Assembly (NCBI GenBank): GCA_900696645.1
Contig: CAADGV010000007.1
Span: 259,029-323,028, forward strand
Reading direction: 5' to 3'
Length of the DNA: 64,000 nucleotides
Source: an uncultured Chlorobiota bacterium
GTDB lineage: Bacteria; Bacteroidota; Ignavibacteria; UBA10030; UBA6906
In this document: positions 3,976 through 27,471 of the stretch, piece by piece
Position numbering within the stretch: position 1 is the stretch's first letter
Layout of the letters: each line of letters begins with the position of its first letter
Made by a program: the position numbers and the translations under genes
The notes under the pieces: generated by a model
Seen by the model: the letters and a program-made list of their open reading frames with translations, nothing else
Told to the model about the DNA's origin: nothing
The model's database searches: none

Positions 3976-4659
3976 ATGACAAAAATTCTTGTTGTTGAAG
4001 ACGAACCGACGATGCAAGTCGGCCTGAAAGACAATCTCGAATTTGAAGGATACGACGTGAACGTCGTGAATAACGGGAAGTCGGGATTGGATGAACTCAC
4101 GAACAACACGTATGATCTTGTTGTGCTCGATGTGATGCTTCCACAGATGTCCGGCTTTGATGTATTGAGAAAAGCCCGTGAAAAGGGGGTCGGTACGCCG
4201 GTCATCATGTTGACGGCGAAGGGGGAAGAGATCGACAAGGTTCTTGGCTTGGAACTCGGTGCCGATGACTACGTTACGAAACCGTTCAGCCTCCGCGAGT
4301 TGATTGCCCGCGTGAAAGCAGTATTACGAAGGCAACAATCAGGCGGTCAGGCTTCTTCTGTTCGGATGAAGCTCGGTGACGCGGAAATTGATTTCTCAGC
4401 ATACACCGCAACACGCGGCGGCAAAGAAGTTGCGATGACCCCGAAGGAATTCGACATCTTGAACTTCCTCTGGCAGCATCGCAACACTGTGGTTAGCCGC
4501 GATCAACTCCTCACAAATGTGTGGGGATATGATGAATCTATCAGTACGCGCACGGTTGATAATTTTGTTCTCAAGCTGCGCCAAAAACTTGAAACCGATC
4601 CGGCGCATCCCCGACACATCATCACCATTCACGGGACAGGATATAAGCTGATTGTGTAA
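3976..4659 (+). CDS. OmpR/PhoB-family response regulator
   Basis: 227 residues: an N-terminal receiver with the acidic pair EDE, phospho-acceptor Asp52 in VVLDVMLP, and the conserved Lys in DYVTKPF. A C-terminal winged-helix DNA-binding domain follows, with MTPKEFDILNFL, the recognition-helix region TRTVDNFVLKLRQKLE and the terminal GTGYKL hairpin. It is the cognate partner of the kinase just upstream. Proteins of this family bind tandem direct half-sites about 10-11 bp apart. Such arrays occur 42 bp downstream of this gene and again before the gene at 5372, making those two genes its likely targets (inference). Confidence 0.92.
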   Translation: MTKILVVEDEPTMQVGLKDNLEFEGYDVNVVNNGKSGLDELTNNTYDLVVLDVMLPQMSGFDVLRKAREKGVGTPVIMLTAKGEEIDKVLGLELGADDYVTKPFSLRELIARVKAVLRRQQSGGQASSVRMKLGDAEIDFSAYTATRGGKEVAMTPKEFDILNFLWQHRNTVVSRDQLLTNVWGYDESISTRTVDNFVLKLRQKLETDPAHPRHIITIHGTGYKLIV

Positions 4660-4700
4660 GAAACAGCAATCCGTTGCATCATCACATCCTGTTTCAGTCG

Positions 4701-4750
4701 TGACATTCTTTTACAATTGCTGACGCTGTTTGGACATCTTCCACAATTCC
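4701..4750 (+). promoter_or_regulatory. putative response-regulator operator, five half-sites with ~10-bp spacing
   Basis: Five related half-sites lie on one face of the helix: TGACA at 4701, TTACA at 4711, TGACG at 4721, GGACA at 4732 and CCACA at 4741. The first half-site is 111 bp before the start codon at 4812. The same pattern with the same spacing recurs at 5264. The layout fits binding by an OmpR/PhoB-type regulator, probably the one encoded just upstream. The motif is read directly from the sequence; the binding protein is inferred. Confidence 0.5.
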
Positions 4751-4811
4751 TGCCCGTAGATTAGGGCAGAGTTTCCAAGTAAGCAATTCACCAAACCCCA
4801 AGGAGGATGTC

Positions 4812-5255
4812 ATGAAAACGAACAAGATAGCCTACGCAGTGTTGGTAATCTCAACACTTTCAGTTGCAGCCTTTTCCCAGACTAATTCCAACTCGTACTT
4901 CTCAGTGCCGAATTCTATCCGAGAATCGAATCTGTCGAAGGCCGAGAAGCAGTATTTCAGTTGCCTGAAATCGGTTAACGACGGCGTTGTTGAGTCTGCA
5001 CTTGCCCACGTTGCAATGCTGAAACTGATGAACCCGGACAGGGATTTTGCATCGGTTGCACCCGTGGTTGATATGGTTGCCGGCAAAAACTCATCTCCGG
5101 AGATTCGCTACAAGGCTTATCTGGTAAGCAATGTACTCCGGAATCCCGAATTGTTCTCCGGGGATACGCGGACAGACTATGAGTCGCCGGACGAGTTGTT
5201 TTCTGTGTTGGCAAGCAGAATGAGCGCCTTGATAGCCAGCTCGATCGAGAAGTAG
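4812..5255 (+). CDS. small secreted protein of unknown function
   Basis: 147 residues, not assigned to a family. It begins with a clear signal peptide (Lys-rich n-region, hydrophobic core, cleavage probably at AFS-Q near residue 22), so the mature ~125-residue protein is periplasmic or outer-membrane. The mature part is mostly helical with an AHVAMLKLMNPD segment that could be a helical-repeat unit. A strong Shine-Dalgarno (AAGGAGG) lies just ahead of the ATG. It sits between two copies of the half-site array and directly after a two-component system, so it is probably controlled by that system. Confidence 0.75.
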   Translation: MKTNKIAYAVLVISTLSVAAFSQTNSNSYFSVPNSIRESNLSKAEKQYFSCLKSVNDGVVESALAHVAMLKLMNPDRDFASVAPVVDMVAGKNSSPEIRYKAYLVSNVLRNPELFSGDTRTDYESPDELFSVLASRMSALIASSIEK

Positions 5256-5263
5256 GTTGTTGG

Positions 5264-5299
5264 TGACATCTTTTTACAATCAATGACCGGAAAGCGACA
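5264..5299 (+). promoter_or_regulatory. second copy of the putative response-regulator operator
   Basis: Half-sites TGACA (5264), TTACA (5274), TGACC (5284) and CGACA (5295) repeat the first array with identical offsets of 0, +10, +20 and +31. The first half-site is 108 bp before the ATG at 5372, against 111 bp for the first array, so both pattern and position relative to the gene are conserved. This argues for one shared regulator of the genes at 4812 and 5372. Confidence 0.5.
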
Positions 5300-16207: not shown

Positions 16208-16308
16208 GACCTCACGCTAAATCCCTCTCCTGAGAGGAGAGGGCCTTTATCGAAACCTCGCTCAAATCTCCCTCCTCCTCTTAGGAGAAGGGGCCGGGAG
16301 ATGAGGTC
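16208..16308. repeat. ~100-bp palindromic repeat element (REP/MITE-like)
   Basis: The outer ends are a 7-bp inverted repeat, GACCTCA (16208-16214) and TGAGGTC (16302-16308). Inside is a perfect 9-bp hairpin, CCCTCTCCT/AGGAGAGGG with a 3-nt loop (16223-16243), and a second weaker hairpin (CTCCT...AGGAG, ~16276-16286). Such CCTCTCC...GGAGAGG palindromes are common dispersed repeats in several phyla. It lies in the divergent gap 16124-16563 between the aminotransferase and the glycosyltransferase fusion. Otherwise I see no gene or clear promoter there. Confidence 0.6.
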
Positions 16309-16563
16309 GGTATCAAGAATAGAAGCGCCTTTGGGTTTTGCGTAACATCAGTGAATCAGTTCGGATGCTCCTCAACCCTCAAAAAATACCAAGTTGGGGG
16401 AGCAGAAGCAAAGGAATTGTAGTGTCTGCGCGATTCGCGACCAGATGACCAATATTGTTCACCTGAGTTTGTCACTACTGCCGAACTCCACTTCGAAATG
16501 GTGTTCTTTTCGGGCATGATCCTTGAGTGAGTGCAGTCGACCAATCCCCCGTCAGGGAAGGGT

Positions 16564-19500
16564 ATGCTCATACGGATACCGGCTGCGAATGCTGAGCATT
16601 GTACAGTTGCGGAATTCGCCGGATTTTTCTGGAAACAATCACAGCAGGGAAGTATGCAATATGTGAAAGCGTTAGCCGACCACTTGACGCCGCGACATCA
16701 TCGTTTTGTTGAGGCATTTTTGTTGAAATACTCAGATGCCGGCAATCCACATTTCGTTGCGGATGCATATCGTCAGATATTGAAGAGGGGTATTGAGGCG
16801 GTTTCGTATGTAGATGACCTGATGGTCCTGTATGGTGGATACGATCGGCGTCAGTTTCTATACGACATGTTGCGCTCGAATGAATTCTGCGCATTACAGC
16901 GTCGGGGTGAGGATCCGATCCAGGAACCTGAAGGCGTGAAACCACAGCTGCATCGTCCGCCCATCTCGCAACTCGAACAATACCAGGACATATGGGTCAA
17001 GGGAAAAGTGGAAAAGAAGGGTGTGCGAGAGTGCGAGGATCGGTTTGAGATTATTCAATCCTTCTGCAAGCAGTATACGAGGCCATTTACGATTCTGGAT
17101 ATCGGGGCAAACCTCGGGTATTTTTCACTCCGCCTTACAGAGGTTTTCGATTGCACGGCAGTTGCTGTAGAGGGAATCTACGGCGAGTGGACCCATGAGG
17201 TATTGAAGAAGAATGAAAATCAACGCGTGATCCTCCTTCAGAAAGTGATATCGCTGGAAGGTCTGTGCGCGCTTGCAGCCGTCGAACATTTCGATGTTGT
17301 GCTTGCTCTGAGTGTCATTCATCATCTCGAAGGAAGCTTTGATGAATCGCTCAACGTTCTACGCTCGCTTGGCGATCACCTGATACTTGAGCTTCCGTAT
17401 GAAGCGAATGCGTGCGGGCAGGAGGTTGTAACCAGCGTGCTGAATGCCACATTGCCGGAAGATGCTCAGATACTAGGCTACGGAAAGAGCCATCTGATGG
17501 ACGGCGAAAGACCAATCATGTTACTCTCGCAGCCAAAACAGTCCATTGCCCGTTCGTATCTTGGTACCCCACGAACAGACCTGCACGTTACGATTACGAG
17601 TACATTTGACGAGAAGAAGGTCAGGTTTCACACGAAGGAGGAGGAGCGTACGTGGGCTCGCGGAATAAATCTGCAAACATATTTATGGTTTAAGGGAGTA
17701 TATCCCTCCATGTCACGGATTGCCGACCTGTTGGCTGCCAAAAGGTTGCCGCAGGTGAGTCATCGCGACATTCAGCCTTGGAATGTGCTCGTACAAGGTG
17801 ATGATGTCGAACTGATTGACGCAAATGATCCGAATCATGCCTATGATTTTCCTGACACAAAGTGTCTTGAGAGATTGTTGTGGCTACTCAGAGCGGATTC
17901 CTCCGGTTCACCGGAAGTGACGATGCCACCCGCGTCCCTGCAACTCACCGAACAACCACTATGGCGTCAGGCAGCCCCTGTCTCCAGCGACGTCGGTCCG
18001 CAGGCGGCTGTTGCAGCAGTGTTGAACAATGCCGATCGCCTTATTCAGGCCGGAAAGCTTGAACAGGCTGTCGCCGAATTGCAGAAAGGCTTTCAGTATT
18101 TCCGTGAAGCGGCAAAGCTCCATTTCCGATTGTATGAAGTAATGAAGGCACAGGGTCAGACGGAACGTGCAGAGGTTGAATTCGCTACCGCCTTCTTCTG
18201 TGACCCCTCTCTCGCAGAAGTTCACAACGAATTTGGGGTGAGAGCCTTTGAGAAGGGGAACATCGCGTTAGCGCTCAGGAACTTTGAGCGCGCCGTGCAA
18301 TTCGACCGCAGGTGTGTTGCCGCGCAGAAGAATCTCAGTGATCTTTATGTGAACGAGGGAAGGCCGGAAGACGCTGTACGGCATCTTCAAGCAGTTCTCG
18401 AATATTCACCTGATGATGTTGAGGCACTTGCCGGCCTCGGCTATGTTTGCGTACAGATGAAATCAATTGATGACGCGATGTTCTTTTTCAATCGTGTAAT
18501 TGCAATTCGTCCGGATCACCCCGAGGTCTTGCAAATCCTCCGTCTGCTTGATGCACAGCAGAACAAAGGAACGGCCGCTGTGACTCAAGTATCCGGGCAG
18601 GAAGTGGTATCTTCAGAAGTTGTATGGGCTGCCCCGTTCTTCAATCCCAGCGGCTATGCAAGCGAGGCCATCAATTTCGTTCTCCCGCTTGAGCGTCGCC
18701 TTGCGTTGAAAATCTTCCACCATAACCACATCGTTTCCAAGGAGTTCATTCGTGAGCTTCCCGTTTCAGTGCGGGAATCGCTTGACAGGATGCAGAACAG
18801 AAAGGTAAAGCCAGAAGGATTCATCTTCGTTTCACACAATCCCGCACACGGCTTTGTGAAGCCCCCCGAAGCGAAATATGTCATCGGCCGAACAATGTTC
18901 GAAACGGACCGCATCCCGCACGATTGGGTTGTCAAATGCAACGAAATGGATGAAGTGTGGGTCCCGACGGACTTCAACATGCAGACATTTGCCAGATGCG
19001 GAGTTGAGAAACAGAAACTTAAAAAGATTCCCGGGTCAGTCGATGTTCATATGTTCGACCCCCGAATTACCGAACCACTTCCGCTCGAAGAACGAAAGGG
19101 GTTCAACTTCCTTGCGGTGTTCGAATGGTCCGAGAGAAAGGGTTATGATGTTCTGCTGAAAGCATATTTCAGCGAATTCCATTCGTCGGATGATGTCGCT
19201 CTGTACTTACGCACGTACCTTATGGGACGTACGGATGCGGATGATTGCGATGAAATTCTGGAGAGAATCCGTGCCGTTGCACAGGAATTGGGAAAGAACT
19301 CGGACGAATTGCCGGCGATCCGTATCCTGAACAAGCAGGTGCCGCTCACAATGTTACCAATGTTGTACAAAGCGGTGGATGCCTTTGTTGCACCGAGCCG
19401 GGGGGAAGGATGGGGTCGTCCGCACATGGAGGCGATGGCGATGGAGTTGCCATGCATAGCGACAAACTGGAGTGGCAACACGGAATTCATGAACGAAAGC

Positions 19501-21342
19501 AACTCATATCCTTTACGGATTGAAGGGTTGAGATCTGTGCGTAAGATGGAGATTCCGATTTATGTGGGTCACAAGTGGGCCGAGCCGTCTGTGAAACACT
19601 TGCGTCAGCTGATGCGTCACGTTCAGCAACACCGTGAGGAGGCAAGACAAAAGGGTGTTCAGGCACGCAGGGACGTCGTTGAGAAATACAGTCAAGAAAA
19701 AGTCGCCGGGCTGGTGATGGAACGTATTGTGGCAATTCAAGAGACGCTCTCCGGCGATGCAGCAGTAAGGAAGAAGCCTTCGGTTGCTTGGGAAGGTACC
19801 CCTTTCGCGCATCACTCTCTTTCGTTGATTAACCGCGAACTATGTGTGGAGCTTCTCTCGAATGGATATGAACTGTCCATTGTTCCATTCGGGGAAGATC
19901 ATTTCAAACCGGGGAAGAAAAATCGCTTTGCGCGACTGCACTCAAAACGAAACAAATTGCTTCCATCGGTTGATGTTCACGTTCGCCACCACTGGCCGCC
20001 GAACCTGACTCCGCCCGAGGAAGGGCGCTGGGTTGTGATGCAGCCGTGGGAATTCGGCAGCCTGCCAAAATCCTGGGTTGAGGCTTTCGCATCGCAAGTA
20101 GATGAGGTGTGGGCGTACACCGAATACGTTCGTCAGGTATATGTCAGCAGTGGAATTCCGGCAAATCGCGTCCATATTGTGCCGCCGGGCTTTGACCCGG
20201 AGACGTTTCATGCTGGCGTAAAGCCGCTGAAACTGAAGACGAAGAAGCAGTTCAAGTTTCTGTTCGTTGGAGGAACGATTTATAGAAAGGGAATCGACAT
20301 TCTCCTGGAAACATACACTCAAACATTCACTAGTACTGATGATGTGTGTCTTGTTATCAAGGACATGGGGGGAGATTCATTCTACAAGGGTCAGACGTTT
20401 CGTGATGTTATTCTCGAACTCCGGAAGAAACCCGGGATGCCGGAGATTGAATACATCGATAAGATTCTCTCTGAACACGAACTTGCCGGACTCTACACTG
20501 CATGCAACGTACTCGTTCATCCGTATCGGGGCGAGGGATTCGGCATGCCGATTCTTGAATCAATGGCGTGCGGAACTCCGGCGATTGTCACACAGGGCGG
20601 CGCGGCTCTCGATTTCTGCAATCGGGAGAACAGCATTCTCGTTTCGGCAAGCAGACTCCAGCTCCCTTCAAAATTCATCGGTCACGATGAAACCGTTGAT
20701 TTCCCGTGGCTGCTTGAAGTCAACAAGAAGGAACTTGCAGAGAAGATGGCATTTGCAATGCAACATGTTGACGATCTTCAGACTCTTGGGAAACAGGCAA
20801 GCGAGGACGCGCATAGTAACTGGACATGGAGGCACGCCGCCGCAAAGTGCCGTCAACGAATAGGTGAGTTGTCGAAGAAACCAATTGTCCGTTTCTCACA
20901 ACAACCACCCGGCAATGAGTACATGCAGGAGAAACTCGGGAAGTCTCTCGCTTTGTTCAGGCTCGGTAGGTTCAAGGACTCTCTCGCAGAGCTGCTTGAC
21001 CCGGGACCAAAGGTCAGTGAAAATGTTTCACAGGCAATCCAAACAGATCAGGCCAATCTCAAGGGTGCATGCTATCTCCGTCTCAACGATTTAGAGAAAG
21101 CGAAAGTGAGTTTTGAAGAGGCCCTGAATCTGACACCGGATTCATCGGAAGCTTGCGCAGGATTGGGTGAAGTGTTCTACTTGCTTGGGAAGGACAAGGA
21201 GGCGAAGATTATGTTTGAGTATGCTGTTGTGTATGATGAAGAGAATGTAATGGCTGTAAACGGCCTTGCCAAGGCGAACGAGAATCTTGGTTTGCCTTCT
21301 GATGAAAACTCTCTTGTTCAATACGTGACAGTAAACAAATAA
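16564..21342 (+). CDS. giant multidomain glycosyltransferase: methyltransferase / kinase-like / TPR / GT4 / GT4 / TPR
   Basis: About 1592 residues; the ATG at 16564 is preferred because AGGGAAGG precedes it, and a GTG at 16531 is possible. Numbering from that GTG: DUF4214-like segment (~55-120); SAM methyltransferase with ILDIGANLGYF (188-198); kinase-like stretch with HRDIQPWN (411-418) and LIDAND (428-433) but a short N-lobe; TPR repeats (~495-680); a GT4 glycosyltransferase with its E-x7-E pair at Glu959/Glu967; a second with Glu1335/Glu1343; C-terminal TPRs (~1455-1590). The methyltransferase-kinase order recalls the O-antigen terminator WbdD. Position just before a GT2 gene and two flagellins suggests flagellin or surface glycan glycosylation (inference). 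Confidence 0.82.
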   Translation: MLIRIPAANAEHCTVAEFAGFFWKQSQQGSMQYVKALADHLTPRHHRFVEAFLLKYSDAGNPHFVADAYRQILKRGIEAVSYVDDLMVLYGGYDRRQFLYDMLRSNEFCALQRRGEDPIQEPEGVKPQLHRPPISQLEQYQDIWVKGKVEKKGVRECEDRFEIIQSFCKQYTRPFTILDIGANLGYFSLRLTEVFDCTAVAVEGIYGEWTHEVLKKNENQRVILLQKVISLEGLCALAAVEHFDVVLALSVIHHLEGSFDESLNVLRSLGDHLILELPYEANACGQEVVTSVLNATLPEDAQILGYGKSHLMDGERPIMLLSQPKQSIARSYLGTPRTDLHVTITSTFDEKKVRFHTKEEERTWARGINLQTYLWFKGVYPSMSRIADLLAAKRLPQVSHRDIQPWNVLVQGDDVELIDANDPNHAYDFPDTKCLERLLWLLRADSSGSPEVTMPPASLQLTEQPLWRQAAPVSSDVGPQAAVAAVLNNADRLIQAGKLEQAVAELQKGFQYFREAAKLHFRLYEVMKAQGQTERAEVEFATAFFCDPSLAEVHNEFGVRAFEKGNIALALRNFERAVQFDRRCVAAQKNLSDLYVNEGRPEDAVRHLQAVLEYSPDDVEALAGLGYVCVQMKSIDDAMFFFNRVIAIRPDHPEVLQILRLLDAQQNKGTAAVTQVSGQEVVSSEVVWAAPFFNPSGYASEAINFVLPLERRLALKIFHHNHIVSKEFIRELPVSVRESLDRMQNRKVKPEGFIFVSHNPAHGFVKPPEAKYVIGRTMFETDRIPHDWVVKCNEMDEVWVPTDFNMQTFARCGVEKQKLKKIPGSVDVHMFDPRITEPLPLEERKGFNFLAVFEWSERKGYDVLLKAYFSEFHSSDDVALYLRTYLMGRTDADDCDEILERIRAVAQELGKNSDELPAIRILNKQVPLTMLPMLYKAVDAFVAPSRGEGWGRPHMEAMAMELPCIATNWSGNTEFMNESNSYPLRIEGLRSVRKMEIPIYVGHKWAEPSVKHLRQLMRHVQQHREEARQKGVQARRDVVEKYSQEKVAGLVMERIVAIQETLSGDAAVRKKPSVAWEGTPFAHHSLSLINRELCVELLSNGYELSIVPFGEDHFKPGKKNRFARLHSKRNKLLPSVDVHVRHHWPPNLTPPEEGRWVVMQPWEFGSLPKSWVEAFASQVDEVWAYTEYVRQVYVSSGIPANRVHIVPPGFDPETFHAGVKPLKLKTKKQFKFLFVGGTIYRKGIDILLETYTQTFTSTDDVCLVIKDMGGDSFYKGQTFRDVILELRKKPGMPEIEYIDKILSEHELAGLYTACNVLVHPYRGEGFGMPILESMACGTPAIVTQGGAALDFCNRENSILVSASRLQLPSKFIGHDETVDFPWLLEVNKKELAEKMAFAMQHVDDLQTLGKQASEDAHSNWTWRHAAAKCRQRIGELSKKPIVRFSQQPPGNEYMQEKLGKSLALFRLGRFKDSLAELLDPGPKVSENVSQAIQTDQANLKGACYLRLNDLEKAKVSFEEALNLTPDSSEACAGLGEVFYLLGKDKEAKIMFEYAVVYDEENVMAVNGLAKANENLGLPSDENSLVQYVTVNK

Positions 21343-22926
21343 ATGAAAATGACAACGGCGCATTCAAAGACACAGAGTAAACAAGATCGAGGGAGTAGGC
21401 TTTCACTCTCAATGATCGTAAAGAATGAAGAAAAGTTTCTGCCCGACTGTCTCGAAAGTGTGAAAGGCCTTATTGATGAAATCGTAATCGTTGACACAGG
21501 TTCGACCGATGCAACGAAAGAGATTGCGGCTCGTTACGGAGCACGTATAATTGATTTTAACTGGATCGGCGATTTTTCGGCTGCGCGGAACCACGCACTT
21601 GAGCAGTGTACGGGCGACTGGGTGCTGTATCTTGATGCAGATGAACGACTTACAGACAATCAAGAGAATCTGCTGCGCAAGCTCATCACGGCAGGCGGTG
21701 TTGACGCGTACAATGTCATCATCGAAAATCCACACTCGCTGCAACAAGGGAACTTCAACCAGGAGAACTCTTATCCGAGACTGTTCAGGAGATTGCCCGG
21801 AGTGAAGTTCGAGGGAAAAGTGCATGAGCAAGTCTGGCCCTCATTGATGCGACTGAAGCTAACCGTGAAGCAATCGTCGCTTGCTATTCAACACCTCGGT
21901 TATGGTCAAGGGTATGATGTCGTCAAACAAAAAGCGGAACGGAACCTTGAACTGTTAAAGAACCAGCTTGCCGCGGACCCGGATGATGCGTATGCACAGT
22001 TCCAAACAGGTAACTCGCTTGTTATACTGCAACGCTACGATGAAGCAAGGCCTGCACTTGAGCTTGCTCTTGAGAACAGCAAACTTGACGTGACCAATAG
22101 GGCTTCCTGTTACAACCTGCTTGCCGAGATCGAAGTAAAACGGGGGAACCTTGACGCGGCAGTCGAACTCTGCCTGAAATCTCTTCAACTTGCTCCCAGA
22201 CAATTGATGGCGCATTGGTTTCTTTCACTCATGTATTTCGATTTGAAGCTATTTGCCAAAGCAGTTGAGCAGTTGAGTACAATCGAGGAGTTGATTCCGG
22301 TTCCGGCGGCTCAGCGTTCAAATCAGGTTGCCTCCGATCTTCATCTCAGAATGGAAGATGTCAAGAAGCGGATGGCAATAACATACGAGGCGGCGGGGGA
22401 ATTCAAGAAAGCCCTCATACAGTATTCGAATGTTGTTGAACTGACTAAAGCGCAAGACGGATTGGCGGGACTCCTTAAATGTGCAGAGCAGGTTGAGGAT
22501 TCCCGTTTCGTGATTGAGACATTGGGGCATCTTACAAGAACAAATTCAGCCAGCGTCGAACTCTTCCTCCCGCTTGCATGGTATTACCGGAAAGTGAATG
22601 ACTTGGATTCTGCCATCAACTTCATAGACAAGGCAATCCGTGCCCAGCCTGCAAACAGCAAAGCATATGCCTTTGCGGTTCGCTGGAAGATGGATACGGG
22701 GGATGTTCAATCCGCAGAGAAGACTCTCGAATTGGCAGAGGAGAAAGGGATTCGGGATTTTGAGTTGCACAAGGCGGGCTTGCAACTTTTTCTGCAAAGG
22801 GGAGATGTGAATGCCGCGTTTCATCATCTTGAACTGATGTCGCAAACCACTGATGCTGATCTTACACCGATCAGGAATCGGCTTGCAGCGCTCGCGGAAA
22901 AGATATCGGCTGTATCATCTCCCTGA
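21343..22926 (+). CDS. GT2-family glycosyltransferase with TPR repeats
   Basis: 527 residues starting immediately after the stop of the giant glycosyltransferase, so translation is probably coupled. The N-terminal ~230 residues are a GT-A glycosyltransferase: SMIVKNEEKFL, DTGSTDAT (nucleotide-sugar binding), FSAARNHAL and the metal-binding DADER. From ~200 on there are TPR-like helical repeats (AYAQFQTGNSLVILQRYDEA, LLAEIEVKRGNLDAA). This GT2-TPR layout is seen in SunS-like S/O-glycosyltransferases and in flagellin glycosylation loci. The next genes are the flagellins, so they are the likely acceptors. Confidence 0.85.
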   Translation: MKMTTAHSKTQSKQDRGSRLSLSMIVKNEEKFLPDCLESVKGLIDEIVIVDTGSTDATKEIAARYGARIIDFNWIGDFSAARNHALEQCTGDWVLYLDADERLTDNQENLLRKLITAGGVDAYNVIIENPHSLQQGNFNQENSYPRLFRRLPGVKFEGKVHEQVWPSLMRLKLTVKQSSLAIQHLGYGQGYDVVKQKAERNLELLKNQLAADPDDAYAQFQTGNSLVILQRYDEARPALELALENSKLDVTNRASCYNLLAEIEVKRGNLDAAVELCLKSLQLAPRQLMAHWFLSLMYFDLKLFAKAVEQLSTIEELIPVPAAQRSNQVASDLHLRMEDVKKRMAITYEAAGEFKKALIQYSNVVELTKAQDGLAGLLKCAEQVEDSRFVIETLGHLTRTNSASVELFLPLAWYYRKVNDLDSAINFIDKAIRAQPANSKAYAFAVRWKMDTGDVQSAEKTLELAEEKGIRDFELHKAGLQLFLQRGDVNAAFHHLELMSQTTDADLTPIRNRLAALAEKISAVSSP

Positions 22927-23213: not shown

Positions 23214-24041
23214 ATGCCGTTTACAGGTGGTGCTAGAATAAACACCAATATTTCAGCTATGAATGCGGTGAATGCGCTGAACAGCATCAATCGCGATCTG
23301 GGTATGCACCAGGAACGTCTCGCCACAGGCCGACGCATCAATTCATCGGCAGATGACCCGTCGGGTTATATGATTTCCAAGAAAATGGAAGGTCGTATTC
23401 GCTCGATGAGTTCGGCAATCGATAACGTCGGAGATGCATCTTCCACGTTAGGTGTTGCTGAGGGTTCTTATCAGAAGATAGCTGATCTGTTGGTGCAAAT
23501 CAAAGAGAAGCAGACACGGTTCATCAATGGGGCATTCGGAAGTGATGAGAAAAGTGCCATTGCCACGGAGATTGCGGCGTTGGCATCGGAGATTGATGAC
23601 ATTGTTGCCAACAACAAGTTCAACGGAGTGCAACTGCTCAACGGTACGTACTCCGAGGATTTTCAGGTTGGCGAGTCAAGCGCGGAGTTGTTCAATGTAT
23701 CGTTCAGCGCAAGCGTCTCCTCGGCTTCTCTACTTGGCACGGCAGCAGGAAGCATTACCAGTGCGAATGTCGTTGGTTTGACTGTTGACACGGGCATTGG
23801 GACTGTGAACTCTGCGATCGGCGCAATCGGGGCATCGCTGAATCGTCTTTCGGCGAAGGAAGAAAACCTGAACAACGCCATCACGAACACAGAAGCGGCG
23901 AAAAGCCGTATCTTTGATGCTGATATAGCAAAGGAACAGATCCAAGCTGCAAAACTCCAAATCTTGCAGCAGACAGCTACATCGATGCTGGCGCAGGCAA
24001 ATCAAGCGCCGCAGGTGTTCTTGTCTCTCTTCCGAAGCTAA
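23214..24041 (+). CDS. fliC: flagellin 1
   Basis: Structural subunit of the flagellar filament, 275 residues. It has the conserved D0/D1 ends: INTNISAMNAVNALNSINRDLG and LATGRRINSSADDPSGY at the N-terminus, AAKSRIFDADIAKEQIQAAKLQILQQTATSMLAQANQ at the C-terminus. The variable D2/D3 region is absent and replaced by a short Ser/Ala-rich stretch (~165-195), as in other short flagellins. It is roughly 85% identical by eye to the next gene. It is transcribed from a sigma-28 promoter, has a strong Shine-Dalgarno and is followed by its own terminator. The Ser/Thr-rich centre is a plausible glycosylation zone given the upstream transferases. Confidence 0.96.
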   Translation: MPFTGGARINTNISAMNAVNALNSINRDLGMHQERLATGRRINSSADDPSGYMISKKMEGRIRSMSSAIDNVGDASSTLGVAEGSYQKIADLLVQIKEKQTRFINGAFGSDEKSAIATEIAALASEIDDIVANNKFNGVQLLNGTYSEDFQVGESSAELFNVSFSASVSSASLLGTAAGSITSANVVGLTVDTGIGTVNSAIGAIGASLNRLSAKEENLNNAITNTEAAKSRIFDADIAKEQIQAAKLQILQQTATSMLAQANQAPQVFLSLFRS

Positions 24042-24314: not shown

Positions 24315-25139
24315 ATGCCACTTACCAGTGGAGCAAGAATCAATACCAACGTTGCCGCGATGAATGCGTTGCAGTCTTTGAACGCCATCAACCGTGACCT
24401 CGGTATGCACCAGGAACGTCTTGCGACCGGCAAGCGCATCAACAGTGCAGCGGATGATCCGTCAGGATACGTGATTTCCAAGAAAATGGAAGGCCGTATC
24501 CGTTCGATGAATTCTGCGCTGGACAACGTCGGTGATGCACAGTCGACTTACGGCGTCGCGGAAGGCGCCTATCAGAAGATTGCTGATCTGCTTGTTCAGA
24601 TCAAAGAGAAGCAAACCCGCTTCATCAACGGCGCATTCGGTGCCGATGAGAAGGATGCTATCGCAACCGAAATCAAGGCCCTCGCCAGCGAAATCGACGA
24701 CATCGTCTCGACCACAAAGTTCAATGGTGTCTCTCTGTTGGACGGCCAATACTCAGAGAGCTTCCAGGTTGGTGAAGGTTCCTCGGAAACGTTCAGTGTC
24801 ACATTCAGTGCAAGCGTCTCCTCAGCTTCATTGCTTGGCACGGCGGCCGGCAGCATCACTTCCGCCAACGTTTCGGGTCTCACAGTGGACACCGGACTTG
24901 GAACGGTGAACAGCTCGATCGGTACGATTGGTGCCTCGTTGAATCGCCTCTCCGCAAAAGAAGCGAATCTCAACACGGCAATTACGAATACCGAAGCAGC
25001 GAAAAGCCGCATCTTTGACGCTGACATTGCGAAGGAGCAAATCAAGGCTGCGAAGTTGCAGATCCTTCAGCAAACGTCAACATCAATGTTGGCACAGGCG
25101 AACACCTCGCCGCAGGTTTTCCTGTCACTGTTTCGATGA
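24315..25139 (+). CDS. fliC: flagellin 2
   Basis: Second filament subunit, 274 residues, same D0/D1-only layout as flagellin 1. Conserved ends are INTNVAAMNALQSLNAINRDLG and RIFDADIAKEQIKAAKLQILQQ. Differences from flagellin 1 concentrate in the N-terminal helix, around residues 135-165 and in scattered helix-surface positions; the central SASVSSASLLGTAAGSITSANV block is identical. It has its own sigma-28 promoter, leader hairpin, Shine-Dalgarno and terminator, so it can be dosed separately. Two flagellins may form distinct filament segments, or be a recent duplication. Confidence 0.96.
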   Translation: MPLTSGARINTNVAAMNALQSLNAINRDLGMHQERLATGKRINSAADDPSGYVISKKMEGRIRSMNSALDNVGDAQSTYGVAEGAYQKIADLLVQIKEKQTRFINGAFGADEKDAIATEIKALASEIDDIVSTTKFNGVSLLDGQYSESFQVGEGSSETFSVTFSASVSSASLLGTAAGSITSANVSGLTVDTGLGTVNSSIGTIGASLNRLSAKEANLNTAITNTEAAKSRIFDADIAKEQIKAAKLQILQQTSTSMLAQANTSPQVFLSLFR

Positions 25140-25253: not shown

Positions 25254-25613
25254 ATGCAGGCAGCACAACAGCAACCGTTTCCGACAATGGAGAGATCATA
25301 CGTTGGAGTCAGGGTAAACTCGGCGTTAAATTCATACCGGAACGAACAGTTGGCGAATCTCTCCCCCGTTGAGGTGATTCACAAGTTGTACGGCGTGGCC
25401 ATTCAGGCAATCAAAAAAAATGATCAGCAGTTGGCGAACCGTGCAATCAACGAGCTTATTGCAGGGTTGAATTTCGAGCATCAGGAAATTGCTTTAAGCT
25501 TATACAGACTTTATCAGTACTCGAAACATTGTCTTCGGCAGGGCAAGCCGGCAGATGCGATGGAAGTATTGGAAGAATTGCGTTCCGCTTGGGTCGAAGC
25601 ATTCAAATTGTAA
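25254..25613 (+). CDS. fliS: flagellin export chaperone FliS
   Basis: 119 residues, the usual FliS size and all-helical. It shows the family pattern: Tyr-x2-EQLANLSPVEVIHKLYGVAIQAI, a central INELIAGLNFEH..IALSLYRLYQY helix and a C-terminal VLEELRSAWVEAF helix. FliS binds the C-terminal D0 helix of flagellin in the cytoplasm and prevents premature polymerisation. It lies directly after the flagellins and before fliD, the standard arrangement. Confidence 0.85.
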   Translation: MQAAQQQPFPTMERSYVGVRVNSALNSYRNEQLANLSPVEVIHKLYGVAIQAIKKNDQQLANRAINELIAGLNFEHQEIALSLYRLYQYSKHCLRQGKPADAMEVLEELRSAWVEAFKL

Positions 25614-25646: not shown

Positions 25647-27086
25647 ATGGCGACAATCAGTACGGTTACGAACCAACAGATCGAGTCTCTCGTTCAGCAG
25701 TATCGGTACAGCATCAGCAACCCGATAACATTGCTGCAGAACCGTCAGACTTCGCTGAACACGCGCCTGAACGTTCTCTCCGAACTGAAGTCGAAGATGA
25801 CTGCGTTGAACAACCTTGCCAAAGGGTTGAAGGCATCGGGCACAACGTCGAAGTTCAACGCGTTCACTGTCGAGAGTTCACTCGGTTCGGTGGCTACAGG
25901 CACTGCAACCGGTACGGCCTCTGCAGGAACCCACTCGCTGCTTGTTACTCAACTGGCGAAGCAGGACAAGGCTATTTCTGCACAACTTTCGAGTTTAGCG
26001 ACAACGATTGTAGGAACGGAGGGTGCCGGGCAAAAGACCATCAGCATTACTGTAAACGGCAGTTCTGTGAATGTCGATTTTGAGTTGGATGCGGGCGACA
26101 CGAACAGCGTAGTACTGAATAAACTGGCTGCGGCTGTAAATGCATCGGGTGGTGATGTGTCGGCGGGTGTTGTTTCCGATACACAGGGCACAAGCAGACT
26201 GGTTTTCACAAGCAAAAAAACCGGGTCCGACCAGGCTGTAAGTTTGGCGGATGTATCGGGGAGCGTGCTTGACACGATAGGCCTTGGGGCCACCGTTATG
26301 GCGGACCGAACGGCTTCCACTGCAACCGGCGGCGGGTTTCTCTATTCTTCGACCGGCCTTCTTGACGCAAAGTTCAAGTTGGACGGCATCGACATCATAC
26401 GCGGAACGAATTCCATTACCGATGTACTTTCCGGCGTCACTCTCGAACTGAAGGGCGTACAATCTCCCACAGATACGCCGCTGACCTTGACTGTCAGCTC
26501 GGACAAATCATCCATCAAGTCAACCGTTCAGGACTTCATCAAGGCGTACAACGATGTTCTCAGCTTTCTCAATGCAAAAACGTCTGTAAACCCAGAGAAC
26601 AAGACGAGGGAGATTCTGGCAAGCGACCAGGTTTTCAAAGGCTTGCGAATGAACATGCGTTCGCTGATTGGTAGTCCTGTGAGCAGTGTGGCAACCGGGA
26701 ATCCGTCGTTGCTGGCAGAGATCGGGATAACAGCAGCATCCGACGGAACGTTGAGCATCAGCAATGCGGCCACGTTTGACAATGCTCTTGCGAGCAACGT
26801 CCGGAAGGTTGCCGATCTATTCAACTCGACCGACGGTGTAGCGGGACGCATGAACGCATTGCTGGAATCCTTTACTTCAACAGGCGGTCAGTTGGAAATT
26901 GCCCAGAACGGAACGAGAGACCAACTGTCAGGCATCAAGTCGGCGTTGACGCGGAACCAAACGCAAATTGATGCAAGGGTTGCATCATTCAGGAAACAAT
27001 ACGAAGCATTGTACAATGCCATGACAAGAATTTCGCTGCAGTCACAGACTGTAACGAATCTGTTAAACCAACTATACGGCTACTAA
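25647..27086 (+). CDS. fliD: flagellar filament cap protein FliD (HAP2)
   Basis: 479 residues, usual size. The N-terminal NPITLLQNRQTSLNTRLNVLSELKSKM coiled region and the C-terminal helical part (TRDQLSGIKSALTRNQTQIDARVASFRKQYEALYNAM...LLNQLYGY) are the conserved FliD ends; the centre is beta-rich. FliD caps the growing filament and drives flagellin insertion. AGAGGAG precedes the ATG, 33 bp after fliS. Confidence 0.93.
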   Translation: MATISTVTNQQIESLVQQYRYSISNPITLLQNRQTSLNTRLNVLSELKSKMTALNNLAKGLKASGTTSKFNAFTVESSLGSVATGTATGTASAGTHSLLVTQLAKQDKAISAQLSSLATTIVGTEGAGQKTISITVNGSSVNVDFELDAGDTNSVVLNKLAAAVNASGGDVSAGVVSDTQGTSRLVFTSKKTGSDQAVSLADVSGSVLDTIGLGATVMADRTASTATGGGFLYSSTGLLDAKFKLDGIDIIRGTNSITDVLSGVTLELKGVQSPTDTPLTLTVSSDKSSIKSTVQDFIKAYNDVLSFLNAKTSVNPENKTREILASDQVFKGLRMNMRSLIGSPVSSVATGNPSLLAEIGITAASDGTLSISNAATFDNALASNVRKVADLFNSTDGVAGRMNALLESFTSTGGQLEIAQNGTRDQLSGIKSALTRNQTQIDARVASFRKQYEALYNAMTRISLQSQTVTNLLNQLYGY

Positions 27087-27096
27087 AGCCGGGAGG

Positions 27097-27471
27097 ATGA
27101 TCAACATGTCAATCTCCCCTCAAATATCAACCGCTGTTGGGACGATGCCCCCGTTGTCGACAACGATCGCATATGCCGGACAATCCGGTATGTACGAACC
27201 CTTGGTTCGCCGTGACCCGAAAGTCGAGGAACGACGGACAGAGGTATCAGAAAAAGAGGCCCGACAACTGGCTCAGGATCTTAATGATGCGTTGCGGCCG
27301 TTCAACACCGAATTGAGTTTCACGGTAGACAAAGACACGGAAAAGGTGGTCATCAAGATTGTGGACAGCGAAACGCAGGAAATTGTGCGGCAGATTCCTG
27401 CAGAAGATACCCTGCGGCTGGCCTCACGCATCAAGCAGTTGTTGGGGCTTCTTGTGGACGGGAACGCATGA
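27097..27471 (+). CDS. flaG: FlaG-family protein
   Basis: 124 residues. The C-terminal ~75 residues match FlaG: LAQDLNDALRPFNTELSFTVDKDTEKVVIKIVDSETQEIVRQIPAEDTLRLASRIKQLLGLL. FlaG proteins influence filament length in several species; the mechanism is not settled. GGGAGG precedes the ATG, and the next gene overlaps its end by 4 bp, so they are translationally coupled. Confidence 0.88.
   Translation: MINMSISPQISTAVGTMPPLSTTIAYAGQSGMYEPLVRRDPKVEERRTEVSEKEARQLAQDLNDALRPFNTELSFTVDKDTEKVVIKIVDSETQEIVRQIPAEDTLRLASRIKQLLGLLVDGNA

Follow-up and report, generated by a model that had tools for sequence, protein, structure and literature searches.

A single gene beside the flagellin genes of an uncultured Chlorobiota bacterium encodes a 1603-residue protein that joins, from N to C terminus, a weak DUF4214-like stretch, a methyltransferase, a compact kinase-like domain, a TPR block, two GT4 glycosyltransferase domains and a second TPR block (table 1). 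On balance, we lean toward the reading that this fusion is a modular, cytoplasmic flagellin-glycosylation megaenzyme that acts before export and caps the glycan with methyl-phosphate. The gene lies in the window, the whole 64,000-nucleotide stretch of DNA that was analyzed, and its frame of 1603 codons is uninterrupted by stops. Matches to Pfam and PDB bear out the order of domains in one chain that had been read from the sequence; the domains named there hold, and the weak DUF4214-like stretch had been left out. The start proposed earlier is an in-frame ATG inside a longer frame that opens with a GTG, and no clear ribosome site is visible by eye at either start.

Table 1. Features of the fusion gene and of the flagellar genes downstream, in window coordinates.
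Feature	Position	Strand	Basis or remark
Fusion gene, 1603 aa	16531..21342	+	GTG start 16531; in-frame alternative ATG 16564
DUF4214-like stretch, residues 63-121	16717..16893	+	Pfam E 0.01, below cut-off
WbdD-type SAM methyltransferase domain, residues 143-337	16957..17541	+	Sequence and fold matches
Compact kinase-like domain, residues 338-455	17542..17895	+	K362, H411-R-D413, N418, D430
TPR block 1, residues about 490-690	17998..18600	+	Pfam
GT4 domain a, residues 694-1075	18610..19755	+	Pfam; E-x7-E from E959
GT4 domain b, residues 1080-1450	19768..20880	+	Pfam; E-x7-E from E1335
C-terminal TPR signature, residues 1455-1603	20893..21339	+	Marks flagellin-locus giants in the class
GT2 (SunS-like) + TPR gene, likely partner transferase	21343..22926	+	Pfam/NCBIfam
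Flagellin 1, likely acceptor	23214..24041	+	Pfam
Flagellin 2, likely acceptor	24315..25139	+	Pfam
FliS, flagellin chaperone	25254..25613	+
FliD, filament cap	25647..27086	+	Pfam
FlaG	27097..27471	+	Pfam

Pfam places TPRs at residues about 500-680 and 1480-1590. Both GT4 domains score above the Pfam cut-off (best E 1e-30) and fit the criteria for retaining GT4 (GT-B) enzymes; domain b is 29% identical to domain a, and the E-x7-E pairs originally described as intact are present in both. The fusion gene is single-copy in its own genome, where further matches are to GT4 or TPR segments only, and the fused form occurs in a single genome of the class sample. G+C content is even along the gene, with no compositional sign of recent transfer. 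Upstream, the intergenic stretch 16210-16320 of the window holds a CTCTCCTGAGAGGAGAG-like inverted repeat region.

Location of the fusion gene at a flagellin locus is conserved in relatives. The GT2-TPR gene begins at the base directly after the fusion gene, and the flagellin genes come next. In a sister species of the same genus, gene order at this slot is the same and both flanks match. Between the aminotransferase gene and the GT2-TPR/flagellin genes, the sister slot encodes a 2803-residue protein (L036, 9268-17679) whose C-terminal half (GT4-GT4-TPR) is 70-72% identical to that of the fusion and whose N-terminal half is different. The methyltransferase-kinase pair of the fusion, hereafter the capping module, is missing from two genomes of the genus. 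The swap of N-terminal halves on a conserved GT4-GT4-TPR half suggests a route to diversity in flagellar sugars between close species. The sister N-terminal half contains a nucleotidyltransferase-like stretch (by eye), a complete Pkinase domain (E 4e-10), TPR, GT2 and further GT4 domains. A kinase common to the two N-terminal halves was considered and rejected; because the alignment is limited to the HRD...LID core (E 6e-4, one pair), the sister kinase is treated as a different domain.

Across the class, a profile of the C-terminal TPR has matches in 58 of 294 genomes. Homologues of FliC, FliS or FliD are within about 10 kb in 33 of the 40 loci examined, and a GT2-TPR match is present in 39; seven of the 40 lack a flagellin gene in the stretch read, some of which end at contig ends. 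In contrast, when loci were picked by GT4-pair similarity alone, only 2 of 20 had a flagellin gene in the stretch read. Therefore, the C-terminal TPR, not GT4 generally, marks this class of flagellin loci. The flagellin association noted in the original prediction thus extends to relatives, both in these loci and in gene order of the sister species, and homologues are not consistently found in O-antigen or capsule loci without flagellins.

The methyltransferase is of the WbdD type. Its match in Pfam and NCBIfam is weak, and WbdD is the only significant PDB sequence match to residues 131-480 (E 2e-6), improving to E 3e-14 when a profile of the module is used; the alignment covers the methyltransferase and, weakly, the HxDxxPWN motif. 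An AlphaFold2 model of residues 143-453 built with 11 sequences (pLDDT 83.8, pTM 0.87) is nearest to WbdD in both Foldseek (E 1e-11; next family, E 3e-6) and VIA-align (Z 19.1, rmsd 2.8, 188 residues; next family, Z 14.6). Together, the PDB match, the fold match and the motif uphold the earlier assignment of a WbdD-type order of methyltransferase and kinase. In WbdD, the phosphate is no longer methylated after any of the substitutions H132A, H133A, R203A and Y16F, and a sulfate/phosphate pocket is lined by R31, R36, C33 and H197 (PMC3482155). By alignment, the methylation residues Y16, H132, H133 and R203 correspond to Y151, H264, H265 and R327 of the fusion, and the pocket residues R31, C33, R36 and H197 to R166, C168, R171 and H321, with the mapping counted by hand from the alignments, in which chain numbering differs by 13 from that of the paper. 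Because both sets are conserved, methylation of a phosphate, not of a plain hydroxyl, is predicted, and judged from these residues, methyl-phosphate is the best prediction for the product of the capping module.

Residues 338-455 probably form a real, compact kinase-like domain, predicted from conserved residues and modeling to be active. The domain has ∼118 residues, with HRDIQPWN at 411-418 and LID at 428-430, and Pfam yields only a weak APH match (E 0.026). The N-lobe, already suspected to be short, is about half normal size; helix C is absent from the predicted model, which has three short strands, a helix at the hinge, the HxD loop and a last helix. This part was modeled separately (pLDDT 76.5) because VIA matches to the whole model were confined to the methyltransferase. 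A check of the fold had been proposed for residues 340-460. Kinases account for every one of the 50 best matches in both Foldseek and VIA, but scores are weak (best Foldseek E 0.019, best Z 7.1) and in a range that a common arrangement can also give. Compared to WbdD, the kinase is not full-size and only the HxDxxPWN...LID core aligns, weakly. Nevertheless, K362, H411, D413, N418 and D430 (window protein numbering) are invariant down to about 25% identity in 19 aligned sequences, all from viral contigs except the window protein. A decayed kinase was rejected because of this invariance of the Lys, HxD, Asn and DFG-like Asp.

Judged by sequence, the nearest relatives of the capping module are phage rather than O-antigen genes. 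Scans of viral contigs (IMG/VR phages) yielded 16, then 30 loci, in which the whole module is mostly a free-standing gene of about 310 codons, 37-54% identical to the module of the fusion over its whole length (best 50-54%). The phage methyltransferase-kinases (A1/A2 family) share with the fusion the EQYQDIWV start, R-x4-R, HH, RGINLxTF, HxDxxxxN and ID. A single-sequence scan of 84,980 species genomes found no relative of the module, a profile scan of species genomes picked up no more than two short MAG contigs, one each from Dependentiae and Verrucomicrobia, and a plasmid search gave no match. Other matches across the class are, where read, plain methyltransferases without a kinase; those of L087 and L089 (G568 and G595) are of the same type and stand behind a ParB-like stretch (by eye), adjoining glycosyltransferase genes. 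Both MAG relatives have a signal-peptide-like start, and HRDLLPWN is kept in the Dependentiae copy (L119, 1310-2827) and the HxD motif lost in the Verrucomicrobia copy (L120, 1447-2433).

As in the fusion, methyltransferase and kinase adjoin glycosyltransferases in mycobacteriophages LittleE and Tweety and in the phages of IMG/VR loci L103-L134. In the phages, however, they are in separate genes, located at the capsid (LittleE and L104) or elsewhere, and the kinase N-lobe of the mycobacteriophages is fuller. In L103, L104 and L108, the module gene comes after a glycosyltransferase gene, with the head-tail connector downstream. In L104, where the module gene spans 4357-5280, the major capsid gene stands first in the run (PHROGs). 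Phage L117 also encodes a GT4 that resembles each of the two GT4 domains in the fusion. The order in LittleE is capsid, glycosyltransferase, kinase, methyltransferase-glycosyltransferase, more glycosyltransferases and head-tail connector; in Tweety, it is kinase, methyltransferase and glycosyltransferase in a row. The methyltransferases of these two phages belong to the same family as that of the module (E 1e-25, small set), and their kinases match the module in the HRD core only. Capsid and tail tube of mycobacteriophages are reported to carry glycans (PMC12619734, citing Freeman et al. 2023). In the phage group L106 and L109-L116, the methyltransferase-kinase, at 4995-5933 in L106, is away from capsid genes; one neighbor is a gene whose 1123-residue product resembles DNA polymerase by eye, and the other, on the opposite side, is RecA-like. 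In a tree of the module, the window sequence is surrounded by phage sequences: 14 of them stand beside it (85/97), and others branch outside. This placement favors transfer from phage to bacterium, short of proof because the tree is arbitrarily rooted and the window sequence sits on a long branch.

Characterized systems share parts of this architecture. WbdD (E. coli O9a/Klebsiella O3) is like the fusion in its N-terminal methyltransferase, the nearest by fold, followed by a kinase, and in the HxDxxPWN motif and the methylation and phosphate-pocket residues. But WbdD has a full-size kinase and a coiled-coil ruler with no transferases in the chain, whereas the fusion has TPRs and two GT4 domains (PMC3482155). 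The coiled-coil C terminus of WbdD recruits the polymerase, in a setting of O-antigen and ABC export (WbdA polymerase and Wzm/Wzt); the kinase of the fusion is followed by TPR and GT4 domains, in a setting of flagellar genes. Because of these differences in kinase size, coiled coil and export context, the fusion is not classed as WbdD. ORF6 of Klebsiella pneumoniae O7 likewise has a methyltransferase-kinase and two glycosyltransferases in one chain (MTase-kinase-GT2-GT2) and was shown to add methyl-phosphate; it differs in its AmiN-like kinase of 223 residues, carbohydrate-binding module, coiled coil, GT2 domains and O-polysaccharide context, as opposed to the GT4 domains, TPRs and flagellin locus of the fusion (PMC11231755). 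WsaE of Geobacillus stearothermophilus also joins a methyltransferase to two transferases and builds and caps the glycan of a self-assembling surface protein, as the fusion is predicted to do, but it is without a kinase, makes a 2-O-methyl cap and acts on a lipid-linked glycan exported by an ABC transporter (PMC2943079). Hence, the part of the original prediction that called the fusion to two transferases unusual has precedents in ORF6-O7 and, lacking the kinase, WsaE (PMC11231755; PMC2943079).

Flagellin glycosylation offers partial parallels. In Caulobacter, the TPR of FlmG binds flagellin in the cytoplasm and directs a GT-B transferase to it, and the same acceptor and TPR role is predicted for the fusion; FlmG has one transferase domain and is without a methyltransferase or kinase (PMC7591256). 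The Type A flagellin glycan of C. difficile and the b-type glycan of P. aeruginosa PAO1 have phosphate and methyl on a short glycan, as predicted here. Both, however, use a CDP donor and an N-methyltransferase to form a phosphodiester to N-methylated threonine, and no WbdD-type module is reported in the passages covered (PMC11833859). Our search of open-access papers turned up no flagellin glycosylation system with a reported WbdD-type methyltransferase-kinase, and the combination with two GT4 domains and TPRs beside flagellins is not found in the literature searched.

Other readings of the fusion were weighed against these data. It could make and cap an O-polysaccharide or other lipid-linked glycan that is ABC-exported, with flagellin neighbors that are incidental, as the activities of the closest characterized enzymes, WbdD and ORF6-O7, would suggest (PMC3482155; PMC11231755). 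Because the genome has two Wzt_C-type exporters elsewhere, this explanation stays alive, but we consider it quite improbable: the exporter genes are on contigs C21 and C24 and the window is on C7, none was found among the window proteins scanned, and the C-terminal half and C-terminal TPR follow flagellin loci across the class. The exporters (at about 46.7 kb of C21 and about 194 kb of C24) have ABC2 membrane partners close by, and the genome probably encodes two ABC-exported polysaccharides.

An active methyltransferase could also be paired with a pseudokinase that binds nucleotide or sugar, in which case the cap is a plain methyl or the phosphate comes from another enzyme. The reduced N-lobe, the lack of a predicted helix C and the weak fold scores are compatible with this. 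We regard it as unlikely given the invariant catalytic residues and the conserved phosphate pocket of the methyltransferase, and given that mycobacteriophages have a separate kinase gene adjoining a related methyltransferase. If the capping module had been inserted recently and neutrally, or if the assembly had wrongly joined phage to bacterial DNA, this would account for the module's presence in one genome only, its absence from the two of the same genus and its nearest relatives being phage genes. Yet the uninterrupted frame and even G+C, the flanks that both follow the order of the sister species and the retention of every catalytic residue at about 50% divergence from the closest phage copy make such an origin very unlikely.

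Returning to the flagellin-glycosylation megaenzyme, we propose that the neighboring GT2-TPR enzyme would place the first sugar on flagellin Ser/Thr and that the two GT4 domains of the fusion would lengthen the glycan. The kinase-like domain would phosphorylate the terminal sugar, and the WbdD-type methyltransferase would methylate this phosphate, a cap proposed to end glycan growth. The TPR blocks, chiefly the conserved C-terminal one, may hold flagellin or the partner enzyme, in the manner of FlmG. We infer these enzymatic steps, their order, the acceptor and the methyl-phosphate product from the domains, catalytic residues, flagellin context, module swapping and phage relatives. A methyl-phosphate cap predicts a shift of +93.98 Da (HPO3 + CH2) on flagellin glycopeptides, and D413A and R327A are predicted to knock out the phosphorylation and methylation steps separately. 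More tentatively, a phage cassette for capping virion glycans may have been captured by a bacterium and fused into its flagellin megaenzyme, at a locus where N-terminal modules are exchanged between species while the GT4-GT4-TPR base stays fixed; the kinase would then be active at the unusually small size of about 118 residues, and the product would be methyl-phosphate on flagellin glycans. If true, this would join O-antigen methyl-phosphate termination, flagellin glycosylation and phage virion glycosylation. The compact kinases of phages are candidates for a family of very small sugar kinases built on the protein-kinase plan.

Related slots in other genomes vary in organization. A further family member, found in a related slot next to flagellar-cluster regulators, has at least 3358 residues. 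Short TPR genes or repeats in tandem, numbering as many as five, also carry the C-terminal TPR signature close to the GT2-TPR gene in L170-L172, L174, L178 and further loci. By eye, asparagine-synthase-like proteins are in, or fused to, the glycosylation slot in L039 (15692-19327) and L037 (17400-17809); an S-layer glycan cluster likewise encodes a homologue of asparagine synthase, WsfA (PMC2943079).
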